NCBI RefSeq assembly: GCF_963556105.2 | Contig: NZ_OY829944.1 | Span: 564,501-628,500 of the forward strand | Reading direction: 5' to 3' | DNA length: 64,000 nucleotides | Origin: an uncultured Tolumonas sp. | Lineage (GTDB): Bacteria; Pseudomonadota; Gammaproteobacteria; Enterobacterales; Aeromonadaceae | Part shown: in pieces, positions 18,878 through 47,171 of the stretch | How positions within the stretch are numbered: the stretch's first letter is position 1 | How the letters are laid out: each line of letters begins with the position of its first letter | The notes under the pieces: generated by a model | Databases searched by the model: none | What the model was told of the DNA's origin: nothing | What the model saw: the letters and a program-made list of their open reading frames with translations, nothing else | Program-made: the position numbers and the translations under genes

Positions 18878-18890
18878 TGCCCCCGCAACG

Positions 18891-18982
18891 GTGAGGTGGC
18901 CGAGTGGCTGAAGGCACTCCCCTGCTAAGGGAGCATGCGGTCAAAAGCTGCATCGAGGGTTCGAATCCCTCCCTCACCGCCA
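18891..18982 (+). tRNA. tRNA-Ser (GCT)
   Basis: Acceptor GGTGAGG pairs with CCTCACC, CCA is encoded, the anticodon loop CTGCTAA gives GCT, and the long variable arm is that of a class II tRNA. Length 92. Confidence 0.96.
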
Positions 18983-18991
18983 TTGCACTGT

Positions 18992-19068
18992 GCATCCGTA
19001 GCTCAGCTGGATAGAGTACTCGGCTACGAACCGAGTGGTCAGAGGTTCGAATCCTCTCGGATGCACCA
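18992..19068 (+). tRNA. tRNA-Arg (ACG), copy 1
   Basis: 77 bases. Acceptor GCATCCG/CGGATGC, anticodon stem CTCGG/CCGAG with loop CTACGAA (ACG, read as ICG), encoded CCA. Confidence 0.97.
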
Positions 19069-19099
19069 TTTTATTTTTGTGTTGTTATAGTTTACTCAT

Positions 19100-19176
19100 G
19101 CATCCGTAGCTCAGCTGGATAGAGTACTCGGCTACGAACCGAGTGGTCAGAGGTTCGAATCCTCTCGGATGCACCA
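19100..19176 (+). tRNA. tRNA-Arg (ACG), copy 2
   Basis: Identical in sequence to copy 1; CCA encoded. Confidence 0.97.
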
Positions 19177-19204
19177 TTTTCTATACCTGTTTTACCTTAC
19201 TCTT

Positions 19205-19281
19205 GCATCCGTAGCTCAGCTGGATAGAGTACTCGGCTACGAACCGAGTGGTCAGAGGTTCGAATCCTCTCGGATGCACCA
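19205..19281 (+). tRNA. tRNA-Arg (ACG), copy 3
   Basis: Identical to copy 1. The spacer to the next copy resembles the previous one (CCTGTTTTA...TTACTCTT), pointing to tandem duplication. Confidence 0.97.
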
Positions 19282-19310
19282 TATTCTTCCCCTGTTTTAT
19301 CTTTACTCTT

Positions 19311-19387
19311 GCATCCGTAGCTCAGCTGGATAGAGTACTCGGCTACGAACCGAGTGGTCAGAGGTTCGAATCCTCTCGGATGCACCA
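19311..19387 (+). tRNA. tRNA-Arg (ACG), copy 4
   Basis: Identical to copy 1; last gene of the array, dnaB follows. Confidence 0.97.
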
Positions 19388-39417: not shown

Positions 39418-39434
39418 TCACCAGATTGTTAAAG

Positions 39435-39456
39435 GCCGTCTCTCATGAGGCGGCTT
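39435..39456 (+). terminator. cydABX terminator stem, cut off from its T-tract by the insertion sequence
   Basis: GCCGTCTC/GAGGCGGC (8 bp, one G-T pair, loop TCAT), followed only by TT and then the insertion sequence. The matching T-tract TTTTATTTG lies beyond the element at about 40771. Joining the flanks rebuilds a normal intrinsic terminator. Confidence 0.8.
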
Positions 39457-39462
39457 AATTAG

Positions 39463-39472
39463 ATGGTCCGCC
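39463..39472 (+). repeat. Left subterminal inverted repeat of the IS
   Basis: ATGGTCCGCC, exact inverse complement of 40758-40767. Confidence 0.9.
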
Positions 39473-39525
39473 TCCGTTCTCAGCGACTAAGCTGAGAATG
39501 AGTTAGGTAACGGAGGTGAACCATC

Positions 39526-40557
39526 ATGCCTATTCAAGTCATTGGTATCGATTTAGGCAAATCTAATTTCCATTTAGTTGCACACGATCGCAAAGGCAAC
39601 ACCCTTTTTCGAAAAAAACTTTCCCGCAAACAGTTGATCCAATTTATCTATGACACCCCGCTCACCACCATCGCCTTTGAAGCCTGCGGAGGTGCTCATT
39701 GGTTGGGACGATTGAGTCTTAAGCTCGGTCATTCAGTGAAACTGCTTCCCCCTCAATATGTACGGCCTTATGTCAAAGGCAATAAAAATGATTTCATTGA
39801 TGCTGATGCCATTGCTGAAGCATCGCAACGGCCGTCCATGCGATTTGTTGAAGTCAAATCAGAGGATGCGCAACTCATCACCGCTGTTTATCGTGTTCGG
39901 CAGGGATATATCAAAGACCGAACTGCATGCATGTGCAGGATTGGTGCTTTATTACTCGAGTTTGGTGTCAGTCTGCCGCAGGGACATGGGACGATGAAAC
40001 AGTTATTCACCTGGCTGACAGCGAATGCACCCGAACTGCCGTCAGCATTAAACATCGAATTAACGGCATTGCATGAGTATTACAAATATCTGAATGAACA
40101 AATCAAAGTGCAGGATGACAAACTTACGCGCCATGTTGCGCAGAGCGATGAAGGGCAATTATTGCATGAGATCCCTGGAGTTGGTGTACTGACGGCCAGT
40201 CAATGTATGGCGGAATTAGGGAGTGTGAAACAATTTAAGAATGGACGCAATCTGGCCGCATGGCTGGGGCTGGTTCCCCATCAGCATTCGACGGGAGGAA
40301 AACCGCGTTTACTCGGAATAAGCAAACGAGGGAATAAACATCTGAGAACGCTGTTCATTCATGGAGCGAGGGCGATTTTAGCCAGGCCGGAAAAGACGGG
40401 GTCGATATTTGGGGACTGGTTAGTGCAACTACGAGCCAGTAAGCCGTTCAATGTAGTGTGTGTGGCGTTAGCGAATAAACTGGCCCGGATAGTCTGGGCG
40501 GTATTGAGGTACAAAGAAGCGTTTAATGCAGAGAAACTGCAATCCGAGTTTGCATGA
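39526..40557 (+). CDS. IS110/IS1111-family transposase (DEDD recombinase)
   Basis: 343 residues. An N-terminal RuvC-like DEDD domain carries Asp9 in GIDLGKSNFH, Glu52 in AFEACGGAHW and the Asp pair in KNDFIDADAIAEA (Asp89, Asp92). The C-terminal Transposase_20 domain has a helix-hairpin-helix-like HEIPGVGVLTASQC and the conserved STGGKPRLLGISKRGNKHLR, which includes the proposed catalytic Ser. A GGAGG site precedes the ATG. The gene looks intact, so the element may be active. Enzymes of this family recombine circular element and target under guidance of a structured RNA. Confidence 0.93.
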   Translation: MPIQVIGIDLGKSNFHLVAHDRKGNTLFRKKLSRKQLIQFIYDTPLTTIAFEACGGAHWLGRLSLKLGHSVKLLPPQYVRPYVKGNKNDFIDADAIAEASQRPSMRFVEVKSEDAQLITAVYRVRQGYIKDRTACMCRIGALLLEFGVSLPQGHGTMKQLFTWLTANAPELPSALNIELTALHEYYKYLNEQIKVQDDKLTRHVAQSDEGQLLHEIPGVGVLTASQCMAELGSVKQFKNGRNLAAWLGLVPHQHSTGGKPRLLGISKRGNKHLRTLFIHGARAILARPEKTGSIFGDWLVQLRASKPFNVVCVALANKLARIVWAVLRYKEAFNAEKLQSEFA

Positions 40558-40570
40558 GCAAAGAGAAGAT

Positions 40571-40745
40571 GACGAAAACGGTAGAACCACCGGAATAGAA
40601 CCTGACAATAAAAACAGCAGAAAATGCTTTGGGCTTTTTTGAGGATATTCCGGCGCGGAACTCATCGTGGAGCGGGAAGCGAGAGCCTCCCAACAGAGAC
40701 TCCGAATACATTAGCGCAGACCAATCCCGTCATTGAAGTTTGTTC
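40571..40745 (+). ncRNA. Candidate bridge RNA / seekRNA of the IS
   Basis: Non-coding stretch after the transposase stop. CCGGAATA (40590-40597) pairs perfectly with TATTCCGG (40646-40653), CCT (40601-40603) with AGG (40642-40644), and AGCA (40616-40619) with TGCT (40625-40628). The internal loop between them carries AATAAAAA (40607-40614) and GGCTTTTTT (40632-40640). A second structure is closed by GCGC (40653-40656)/GCGC (40714-40717), with GGAG/CTCC and a GAGA-capped hairpin (40674-40691); its loop carries ATACATTA (40706-40713). The loop segments match the target and donor as detailed in the findings. The exact RNA ends are unknown. Confidence 0.6.
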
Positions 40746-40757
40746 TTGCAATAACGG

Positions 40758-40767
40758 GGCGGACCAT
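40758..40767 (-). repeat. Right subterminal inverted repeat of the IS
   Basis: GGCGGACCAT, inverse complement of the left repeat. Confidence 0.9.
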
Positions 40768-40878
40768 ACATTTTTATTTGTTAACGGGTAAAACAGCAAT
40801 TTAACCTTCAACTAAAAAATAAAGTGAGCAAGATCACCTTCTTTCCGGAATCTTGCTGCGGTATATTATGCGCGTCTT

Positions 40879-46425: not shown

Positions 46426-46501
46426 GGGTCGTTAGCTCAGTCGGTAGAGCAGTTGACTTTTAATCAATTGGTCGCTGGTTCGAATCCAGCACGACCCACC
46501 A
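46426..46501 (+). tRNA. tRNA-Lys (TTT), copy 1
   Basis: 76 bases. Acceptor GGGTCGT/ACGACCC, anticodon loop CTTTTAA (TTT), CCA encoded. Confidence 0.97.
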
Positions 46502-46511
46502 CGAATTCCCA

Positions 46512-46587
46512 GGTCGCTTAGCTCAGCTGGGAGAGCACCTCCCTTACAAGGAGGGGGTCACTGGTTCGATCCCAGTAGCGACCACCA
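46512..46587 (+). tRNA. tRNA-Val (TAC), copy 1
   Basis: 76 bases. Acceptor GGTCGCT/AGCGACC, anticodon stem CCTCC/GGAGG with loop CTTACAA (TAC), CCA encoded. Confidence 0.97.
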
Positions 46588-46607
46588 GTTTTAAAAATGA
46601 TACAGAT

Positions 46608-46683
46608 GGGTCGTTAGCTCAGTCGGTAGAGCAGTTGACTTTTAATCAATTGGTCGCTGGTTCGAATCCAGCACGACCCACCA
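46608..46683 (+). tRNA. tRNA-Lys (TTT), copy 2
   Basis: Identical to copy 1. Confidence 0.97.
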
Positions 46684-46700
46684 TCATTTGCAGTATCCCA

Positions 46701-46776
46701 GGTCGCTTAGCTCAGCTGGGAGAGCACCTCCCTTACAAGGAGGGGGTCACTGGTTCGATCCCAGTAGCGACCACCA
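46701..46776 (+). tRNA. tRNA-Val (TAC), copy 2
   Basis: Identical to copy 1. Confidence 0.97.
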
Positions 46777-46818
46777 GTTTTACACATAATCAACCGAATG
46801 ATTATGTTGAAGTTCCCA

Positions 46819-46894
46819 GGTCGCTTAGCTCAGCTGGGAGAGCACCTCCCTTACAAGGAGGGGGTCACTGGTTCGATCCCAGTAGCGACCACCA
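46819..46894 (+). tRNA. tRNA-Val (TAC), copy 3
   Basis: Identical to copy 1; preceded by a 42-base spacer with an unexplained short inverted pattern (AATCAACCGAATGATT). Confidence 0.97.
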
Positions 46895-46913
46895 AATTTT
46901 GTGTTACAAGTGT

Positions 46914-46989
46914 GGGTTGTTAGCTCAGTCGGTAGAGCAGCGGACTCTTAATCCGTAGGTCGAAGGTTCGATCCCTTCACAACCCACCA
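46914..46989 (+). tRNA. tRNA-Lys (CTT)
   Basis: 76 bases. Acceptor GGGTTGT/ACAACCC, anticodon stem CGGA/TCCG with loop CTCTTAA (CTT); a distinct lysine isoacceptor for AAG. Confidence 0.95.
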
Positions 46990-46999
46990 ATAAATCCCA

Positions 47000-47075
47000 G
47001 GTCGCTTAGCTCAGCTGGGAGAGCACCTCCCTTACAAGGAGGGGGTCACTGGTTCGATCCCAGTAGCGACCACCA
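47000..47075 (+). tRNA. tRNA-Val (TAC), copy 4
   Basis: Identical to copy 1. Confidence 0.97.
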
Positions 47076-47095
47076 GTTTCAAAAGTGACAAAGAT

Positions 47096-47171
47096 GGGTC
47101 GTTAGCTCAGTCGGTAGAGCAGTTGACTTTTAATCAATTGGTCGCTGGTTCGAATCCAGCACGACCCACCA
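47096..47171 (+). tRNA. tRNA-Lys (TTT), copy 3
   Basis: Identical to copy 1; last gene of the array. Confidence 0.97.

Follow-up and report, generated by a model that had tools for sequence, protein, structure and literature searches.

Where does a transposon land when its address is written in an RNA, and what does that address say? The question is raised by an insertion sequence in a 64,000-nucleotide stretch of DNA from an uncultured Tolumonas sp. (contig NZ_OY829944.1, positions 564,501 to 628,500 of the forward strand; this whole stretch is called the window, and positions are counted from its first base). The element spans 39456-40770 on the plus strand (1315 bp) and belongs to the IS1111 type within the IS110 family. 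From the segment behind its transposase gene (40571-40745), the original prediction had proposed a bridge RNA, or seekRNA, programmed for an intrinsic terminator. Our comparative analysis of the sequences makes it very likely that an RNA from the 3' non-coding region of this IS1111-type transposon bridges the target and the joined element ends, and that the element lands in one orientation between the hairpin and the T-tract.

The address is read from two segments of the presumed RNA. The right target guide, GACAATAAAAA (40604-40614, plus strand), would pair with the top strand TTTTTATTG, and the left target guide, GGGCTTTTTT (40631-40640, plus strand), is the same as the top strand. Together they read GGGCT/TTTTATTG (a slash marks the insertion point), which is the 3' foot of a G+C-rich hairpin followed by a T-tract; the guides predict GGGCTTTTTATTG as a target sequence, behind a hairpin or without one. 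The segments CCGGAATA, TATTCCGG, AATAAAAA, GGCTTTTTT and ATACATTA, on which the proposal had been built, do stand at 40590, 40646, 40607, 40632 and 40706, and AATAAAAA occurs once more inside the transposase gene, at 39781.

Nine full copies are present in the element's own genome, the other eight differing from the window copy by 0 to 21 bases. The window copy lies directly after an intrinsic terminator hairpin plus one T behind the cyd genes (39434-39455, plus strand; stem score 22), and the displaced T-tract, TTTTTATTTG, follows at 40771-40780 (plus strand), as read from the sequence and from empty sites; the insertion has parted hairpin from T-tract. The same arrangement is found in eight of the nine copies, with hairpin scores of 18-25 (hairpins are predicted terminators throughout), and seven of these eight sit 26-162 bp beyond the stop of a co-directional open reading frame (ORF); no upstream ORF was found for the terminator copy L054. 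From our own reading of the sequences, we take the genes upstream of the terminator copies to be cydB/X, glmU, dinB, a BatD-like gene, valS, ppc and a thioredoxin-like gene. The joined flanks carry G at -4 in all nine copies, C at -2 in eight, T at -1 and from +1 to +4 in all nine, A at +5 in eight (the window copy has one extra T) and T at +7 in all nine. Copies with unchanged loops beside non-matching flanks, which the original prediction had held to speak against it, were looked for; both target guides are unchanged in 9/9 copies and the flanks match.

The ninth copy, L051, has no such hairpin (score 8). It interrupts the frame of a PAS-domain protein at GGGGATTTTTATTGGG, where the bases match the guides. 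Because this site matches the guides yet lacks the hairpin, base-pairing seems to be sufficient and the hairpin itself seems unneeded. Unoccupied exact sites, GSCTTTTTATTK, number 14 in the same genome, three of them being the reverse face of occupied terminators; all 14 lie behind a hairpin, and therefore the 12-mer that matches the guides apparently suffices by itself to pick out terminators in this genome.

Two observations on copies in this genome stand beside this. A decayed relic of a related element (L057, C1:915991-916050) lies directly behind a terminator-like hairpin. Copies L050 and L052, at different terminators, carry the same nonsense change of TGG to TAG in the transposase gene (equivalent to window position 40013); therefore, a copy with a broken transposase apparently still moved, which suggests help in trans.

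If the guides select the site, they should agree with their own flanks better than with those of other elements. The test set comprised 42 elements with both ends and aligned 3' regions, giving 27 distinct guide pairs: the nine own copies, plasmid copies (12 plasmid loci taken, nine with both ends; nothing new came from L161, L163 and L166) and relatives from Rheinheimera, Thalassotalea, Vibrio, Photobacterium, Pseudomonas, Stutzerimonas, Pelomonas, Noviherbaspirillum and others. The tests cover loci with both ends, and L087 and L088 were left out. The right guide agreed with its own flank at 8.42 of 11 positions and swapped guides at 6.80, and the left guide at 8.29 of 10 against 6.74; none of 20,000 permutations reached either value, which upholds the proposal that the loop holds a left and a right target guide. 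Outside the T-tract the agreement was 3.47 versus 2.03 of 4 for the right guide and 4.60 versus 3.19 of 6 for the left (0/20,000 each). Flanks of relatives with other guides differ correspondingly: L001 carries the guide AGTCGTTTTT at the flank GGTCGT/TTTTT, the guide of L012 demands a C within the T-run and its flank reads TTTTCTTTG, L016 sits at TTTATTGCC, and the guide GTCAG of L019 is found at GGTCAG/TTTTCGG. Shared descent of the elements offers no ready explanation, because the flanks belong to the host DNA, at sites independent of one another. In a separate set of 11 elements with both ends from viral or prophage contigs (8 guide pairs), the right guide was equalled in 137 of 20,000 permutations and the left guide in 424 after one wrongly cut guide had been corrected. 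In all, 34 distinct guide pairs with their targets were collected.

It could be argued that insertions are random or merely biased to T-tracts, with selection keeping those behind genes; sites behind genes are probably harmless, and T-tracts are common. We find this scarcely credible, as the junction is base-exact, the orientation is always the same, and guides and flanks covary across relatives also outside the T-tract.

We then asked how widely the terminator address is shared. Left flanks were called terminator-like by a simple stem score with a threshold of 14, which was picked after seeing the first set. By this measure 40 of 60 sites reached 14, against 8.8% of control five-T tracts from other parts of the fetched loci (n = 1790). 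Seven loci with eight left ends had been set aside as other subgroups, and none of these reaches 14 (highest 12); the proportion becomes 40/62 once L137, whose two TAATGAG ends place it back in the set, is added, and 40/68 with all eight ends. Viral contigs were scanned later with three exact left-end patterns and the threshold unchanged, without overlap with the 42 elements; 22 of 29 sites, or 19 of 26 unique flanks, reached 14. Terminator programming, as the original prediction had it, thus appears to hold for eight of the nine copies in this genome and, over all the sites considered, for roughly two in three.

The left ends in this later scan (L198-L226), 22/29 of them behind hairpins, are of the element's subgroup and come from contigs predicted to be viral or prophage; therefore, temperate phages may carry such elements between hosts. 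In 369 Gammaproteobacteria genomes, the exact left-end pattern was found only in the own genome and at L190, a single match without a right end that we take as chance, and a second exact pattern matched only one genome (G009). The elements therefore look sparse in the Gammaproteobacteria genomes searched, with the proviso that exact patterns miss variants.

Some relatives appear to have been naturally re-aimed, at Tn21 ends, an IS66 gene and other sequences. The guide of IS4321 (L165), TTCCGTTTTAC, fits its own flank, TTCCGTTTTCTG. L123 and L132 carry the guides GATAGAC and TTTTCGAC and occupy the site GATAGAC/TTTTTCGAC, which in L123 lies inside an IS66 tnpB frame (Pfam PF05717, E 7e-6, 26.3 bits versus a cut-off of 26.6). 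L216 has its right side re-aimed to C/TTGCATAC, with a fit of 9/11. In a transposase tree built by a quick method (42 rows including five outgroup rows; the outgroup is not clean and one branch is very long), elements with terminator and with other targets were interspersed, which requires at least 10-11 changes.

These relatives bear on another explanation, namely that the transposase or element reads the terminator hairpin itself, as a DNA cruciform or RNA hairpin, the loop matches being incidental. The hairpin before most sites, in both the first and the viral set, speaks for it. However, the site of L051 is coding sequence that lacks such a hairpin, the guides of IS4321, L123/L132 and L216 fit, on both sides or on one, the non-terminator sites that these elements occupy, and the 12-mer by itself finds hairpins at 14/14 empty sites. 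The guide-matching sites without a hairpin thus argue against the hairpin as the recognised feature, and we consider this explanation very improbable.

Several observations nevertheless weigh against guidance by the RNA. The guides are T-rich, and because of this swapped guides match fairly well too; a guide is the best or tied for its own target in only 12/27 (right) and 13/27 (left) groups. Position -3 is C in three of the nine own copies where the guide has G. The fit between guide and flank is poor in L003, L005, L015, L026, L033 and L167, and for L216 the left guide agrees at only 6/10 positions. In the separate viral and prophage set, the left guide before correction of the wrongly cut guide gave 2075/20,000, which is not significant.

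Does the region encode a structured RNA? The original prediction had drawn a stem closed by 40590-40597 with 40646-40653 and had called for covariance folding across homologous copies. The family alignment of 34 distinct RNAs indeed bears out the target-binding loop (40590-40653, plus strand): in its outer stem 97.4% of cells are paired and 7/8 pairs show double changes, and an apical hairpin (40616-40619 with 40625-40628) separates the right guide, on the 5' side, from the left guide, on the 3' side. In the second, donor-side domain, the inner helix (GGAG 40669-40672 with CTCC 40700-40703; with the enclosed part 40669-40703, plus strand) has four pairs, with 100% of cells paired and three pairs with double changes. 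Over the whole fold, 94.3% of cells are paired and 13/23 pairs have changed on both sides; the covariation score was 0.441 versus 0.148 in shuffles and at most 0.063 in slid alignments. RNAalifold, given no fold, returned a near-identical structure of 22 pairs, 13 of them compensated. Among the 34 RNAs the number of pair types was not above that of shuffles (32 versus 31.4), and two pairs, 31-47 and 75-139, fail in many sequences. Folding of the single sequence was modest (z -1.68; 10/200 shuffles fold as well). We regard single-sequence folding energy as weak evidence and the family alignment as decisive; a structured RNA is thus supported by covariation, at the level of predicted pairing.

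The exact junction was read from empty sites. The uninterrupted window site, GGCGGCTTTTTTATTTG, a hairpin with six T, is present in three same-genus genomes (L169, L170 and L172), which settles in favour of six the '5 or 6 T' that the original prediction had left open. The window copy has TT on its left and TTTTT on its right, and subtracting the six T of the empty site leaves one T for the element. Likewise, the empty L051 coding site has five T in two relatives (L180 and L182), which is the left two plus the right four minus one. Empty sites were readable in 3/9 loci of relatives for the window site and in 2/4 loci inspected for the L051 site, the remainder having no match to the anchor pattern. 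Because left T plus right T minus one equals the empty site in both cases, the element shares or carries a single T and not a pair. The joined ends accordingly read ATACATAATTAG, with ATACA-T-AATTAG at the junction. A shared TT core, which the full match of ATACATTA to the joined ends needs and which the original prediction had set as its condition, is ruled out by these T counts; the six-base match ATACAT stands. In the own-genome copy L053, the left end reads TTTTTAG, not TAATTAG (the positions equal window 39457-39458); the two junction-adjacent bases look like target T's, perhaps because staggered strand exchanges left a two-base heteroduplex that was then repaired.

For the other half of the bridge, the donor-side domain repeats the layout of the target domain. 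Its probable right donor guide is CTCAT (40661-40665, plus strand), a complement of the left end; the original prediction had wavered between CATC and CTCAT, and CTCAT is the better reading: left-end base 7 occurs as G, T or A, and base 40661 pairs with it in 33/34 distinct RNAs, while L164 would form G-U. The probable left donor guide is ATACATTA (40706-40713, plus strand), of which ATACAT matches the right end plus the T; the variable base of ATA[C/G]A is the same in the RNA and in the right end in 33/34. The RNA segments may accordingly covary with both element ends, as seen at one position each and with few independent states. Alternatively, the target guides are real and the donor segments merely structural, the protein reading the ends via the inverted repeats. 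In keeping with that, an 82-nt seekRNA suffices for ISEc11 transposition and no donor guide is reported in the accessible part of PMC11187229; moreover, there are few donor states, some of them common to a clade by descent, which also counts against our own reading, and CTCAT of the window pairs with the left end at only 4/5 bases. The two 33/34 correspondences speak against it, as does PMC11208160, whose accessible text predicts potential donor-binding nucleotides in IS1111 RNAs. We hold the structural alternative to be possible though rather unlikely. Because of that published prediction, the donor-side covariation agrees with print and is not new.

The anatomy of the element places it firmly in IS1111. 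According to the accessible text of PMC11187229, IS1111-type elements have a downstream non-coding region and subterminal repeats with 7-bp and 3-bp extensions. Here the left extension TAATTAG, the right half of the donor site (39456-39462, plus strand), precedes the left subterminal inverted repeat ATGGTCCGCCTCCGTT (39463-39478, plus strand; 10 bp perfect versus the right end, 15/16 with a one-base gap), and end comparison gives the right repeat with its 3-bp extension ACA at 40753-40770 (plus strand). The extensions, together with the empty sites that bear them out, fix the element ends. In the relative L001 the repeat is 12 bp; the usual IS1111 range is 11-13 bp, perfect or nearly so. The transposase gene (39526-40557, plus strand) encodes 343 amino acids, within the 330-350 of IS1111, with a DEDD_Tnp_IS110 domain (Pfam PF01548, 3.3e-16) and Transposase_20 (PF02371, 1e-24), and GLVPHQHSTG at residue 248 agrees with the IS1111 motif GL-P----S(T)G. 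A long non-coding region extends from the stop at 40557 to the right end at 40770. In the RNA, the top-strand complement lies 5' of the bottom-strand match and both fit the flanks; this right-then-left order, which the original prediction had noticed correctly, is no oddity but the published IS1111 rule (PMC11187229, in its accessible part). The IS110-group (IS621-like) layout, with the RNA upstream and the bottom-strand match before the top-strand complement, is not found in the element. Nor is it a group IIC intron: Rfam at gathering score gives only tRNAs within the window, and the protein is an IS110 transposase. To judge from their protein sequences, the neighbouring genes are presumably cydABX-like on one side and ybgC-like on the other.

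These features suggest the following course of transposition. Further marks of the IS1111 family are an RNA that co-purifies with the transposase and is required for movement, and a circular intermediate whose joined ends form a promoter. The element ends would join as a circle, and this would bring TTGCAA (40746-40751, plus strand; -35-like) to a 17-bp spacing from CATAAT, a candidate promoter, TTGCAA-17-CATAAT, that is present only in the joined ends. Its transcript would yield both the transposase and the bridge RNA; the RNA would bind the transposase, pair with both strands of the terminator foot and, through the donor segments, with the joined ends, and guide strand exchange, and the recombinase would insert the circle in one orientation, mostly just past genes. 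Because insertion parts the hairpin from its T-tract, termination would be weakened and host read-through may enter the element. The left inverted repeat is predicted to pair with the ribosome-binding region and start codon of the transposase gene in a long hairpin (39463-39525), a fold predicted in 9/10 elements folded (the exception is L012). This fold might mute read-through, which is only a suggestion because a shortened form of it is expected from folding the circle transcript too.

The element type and its RNA logic are already known. For ISEc11, ISKpn4, ISPst6 and ISPa11, the accessible part of PMC11187229 describes the same transposase type, downstream non-coding region, 7/3 extensions, guide order, single orientation and flanks matching the RNA; unlike our element, the IS1111 elements described there target a short linear sequence, attC sites or REP (repetitive extragenic palindromic) sequences, none an intrinsic terminator. 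IS4321 shares the subgroup, with a transposase ~46% identical, TAATGAG/ATAGA ends and the RNA fold, but is aimed at transposon ends and not at terminators. In IS621 the left guide comes first. The same order is given for the IS110 type in PMC11187229, and the targets of IS4321 are the terminal repeats of Tn21-family transposons (Partridge and Hall 2003, via PMC11208160), both as far as the accessible texts go. The IS621 bridge RNA, as described in the accessible text of PMC11208160, resembles that of our element in its target and donor loops with two guides each and the same strand logic, whereas its RNA lies upstream and its core is a CT dinucleotide; our element has its RNA downstream, the right guide first and one shared T. 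Group IIC introns use a ribozyme and a reverse transcriptase. Like our element, they are RNA-containing mobile elements just after terminator hairpins, inserting downstream of Rho-independent terminators (PMC3522654, accessible part); unlike them, our element is a DNA transposon and apparently has no need of the hairpin. In the literature on the element's family, surveyed by title and start of abstract with ISfinder and subscription papers outside its scope, no terminator targeting is reported. Nor did this survey turn up a natural guide RNA directed to intrinsic terminators that a subgroup has in common across Gamma- and Betaproteobacteria, with some members re-aimed in nature.

Beside the element, we noted two tandem tRNA clusters in the window, one of eight genes in two mixed score classes (46426-47168) and one of five genes, four with like scores (18890-19384). 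Elsewhere in the genome (C1:1447632 to 1550651), a distant IS110-type transposase, with 32% identity over part, occurs in five copies of equal score.

Taken together, we lean towards the view that this IS1111 subgroup has settled on a generic address, the hairpin foot plus T-tract, written in its guide RNA. Such an address would offer many harmless, host-independent, one-orientation sites behind genes, the leaky terminator would feed read-through into the element, and members would have been repeatedly re-aimed by small guide changes. Known RNA-guided transposons aim at specific repeats, whereas here the guide would encode a functional class of site that lies behind very many bacterial genes. 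A terminator address would explain a broad host range, and where such elements hide safely becomes directly testable. The 34 distinct guide pairs with their targets form a naturally tested set for the pairing rules of IS1111 recombinases, and terminators may be attractive as neutral landing sites for engineering.
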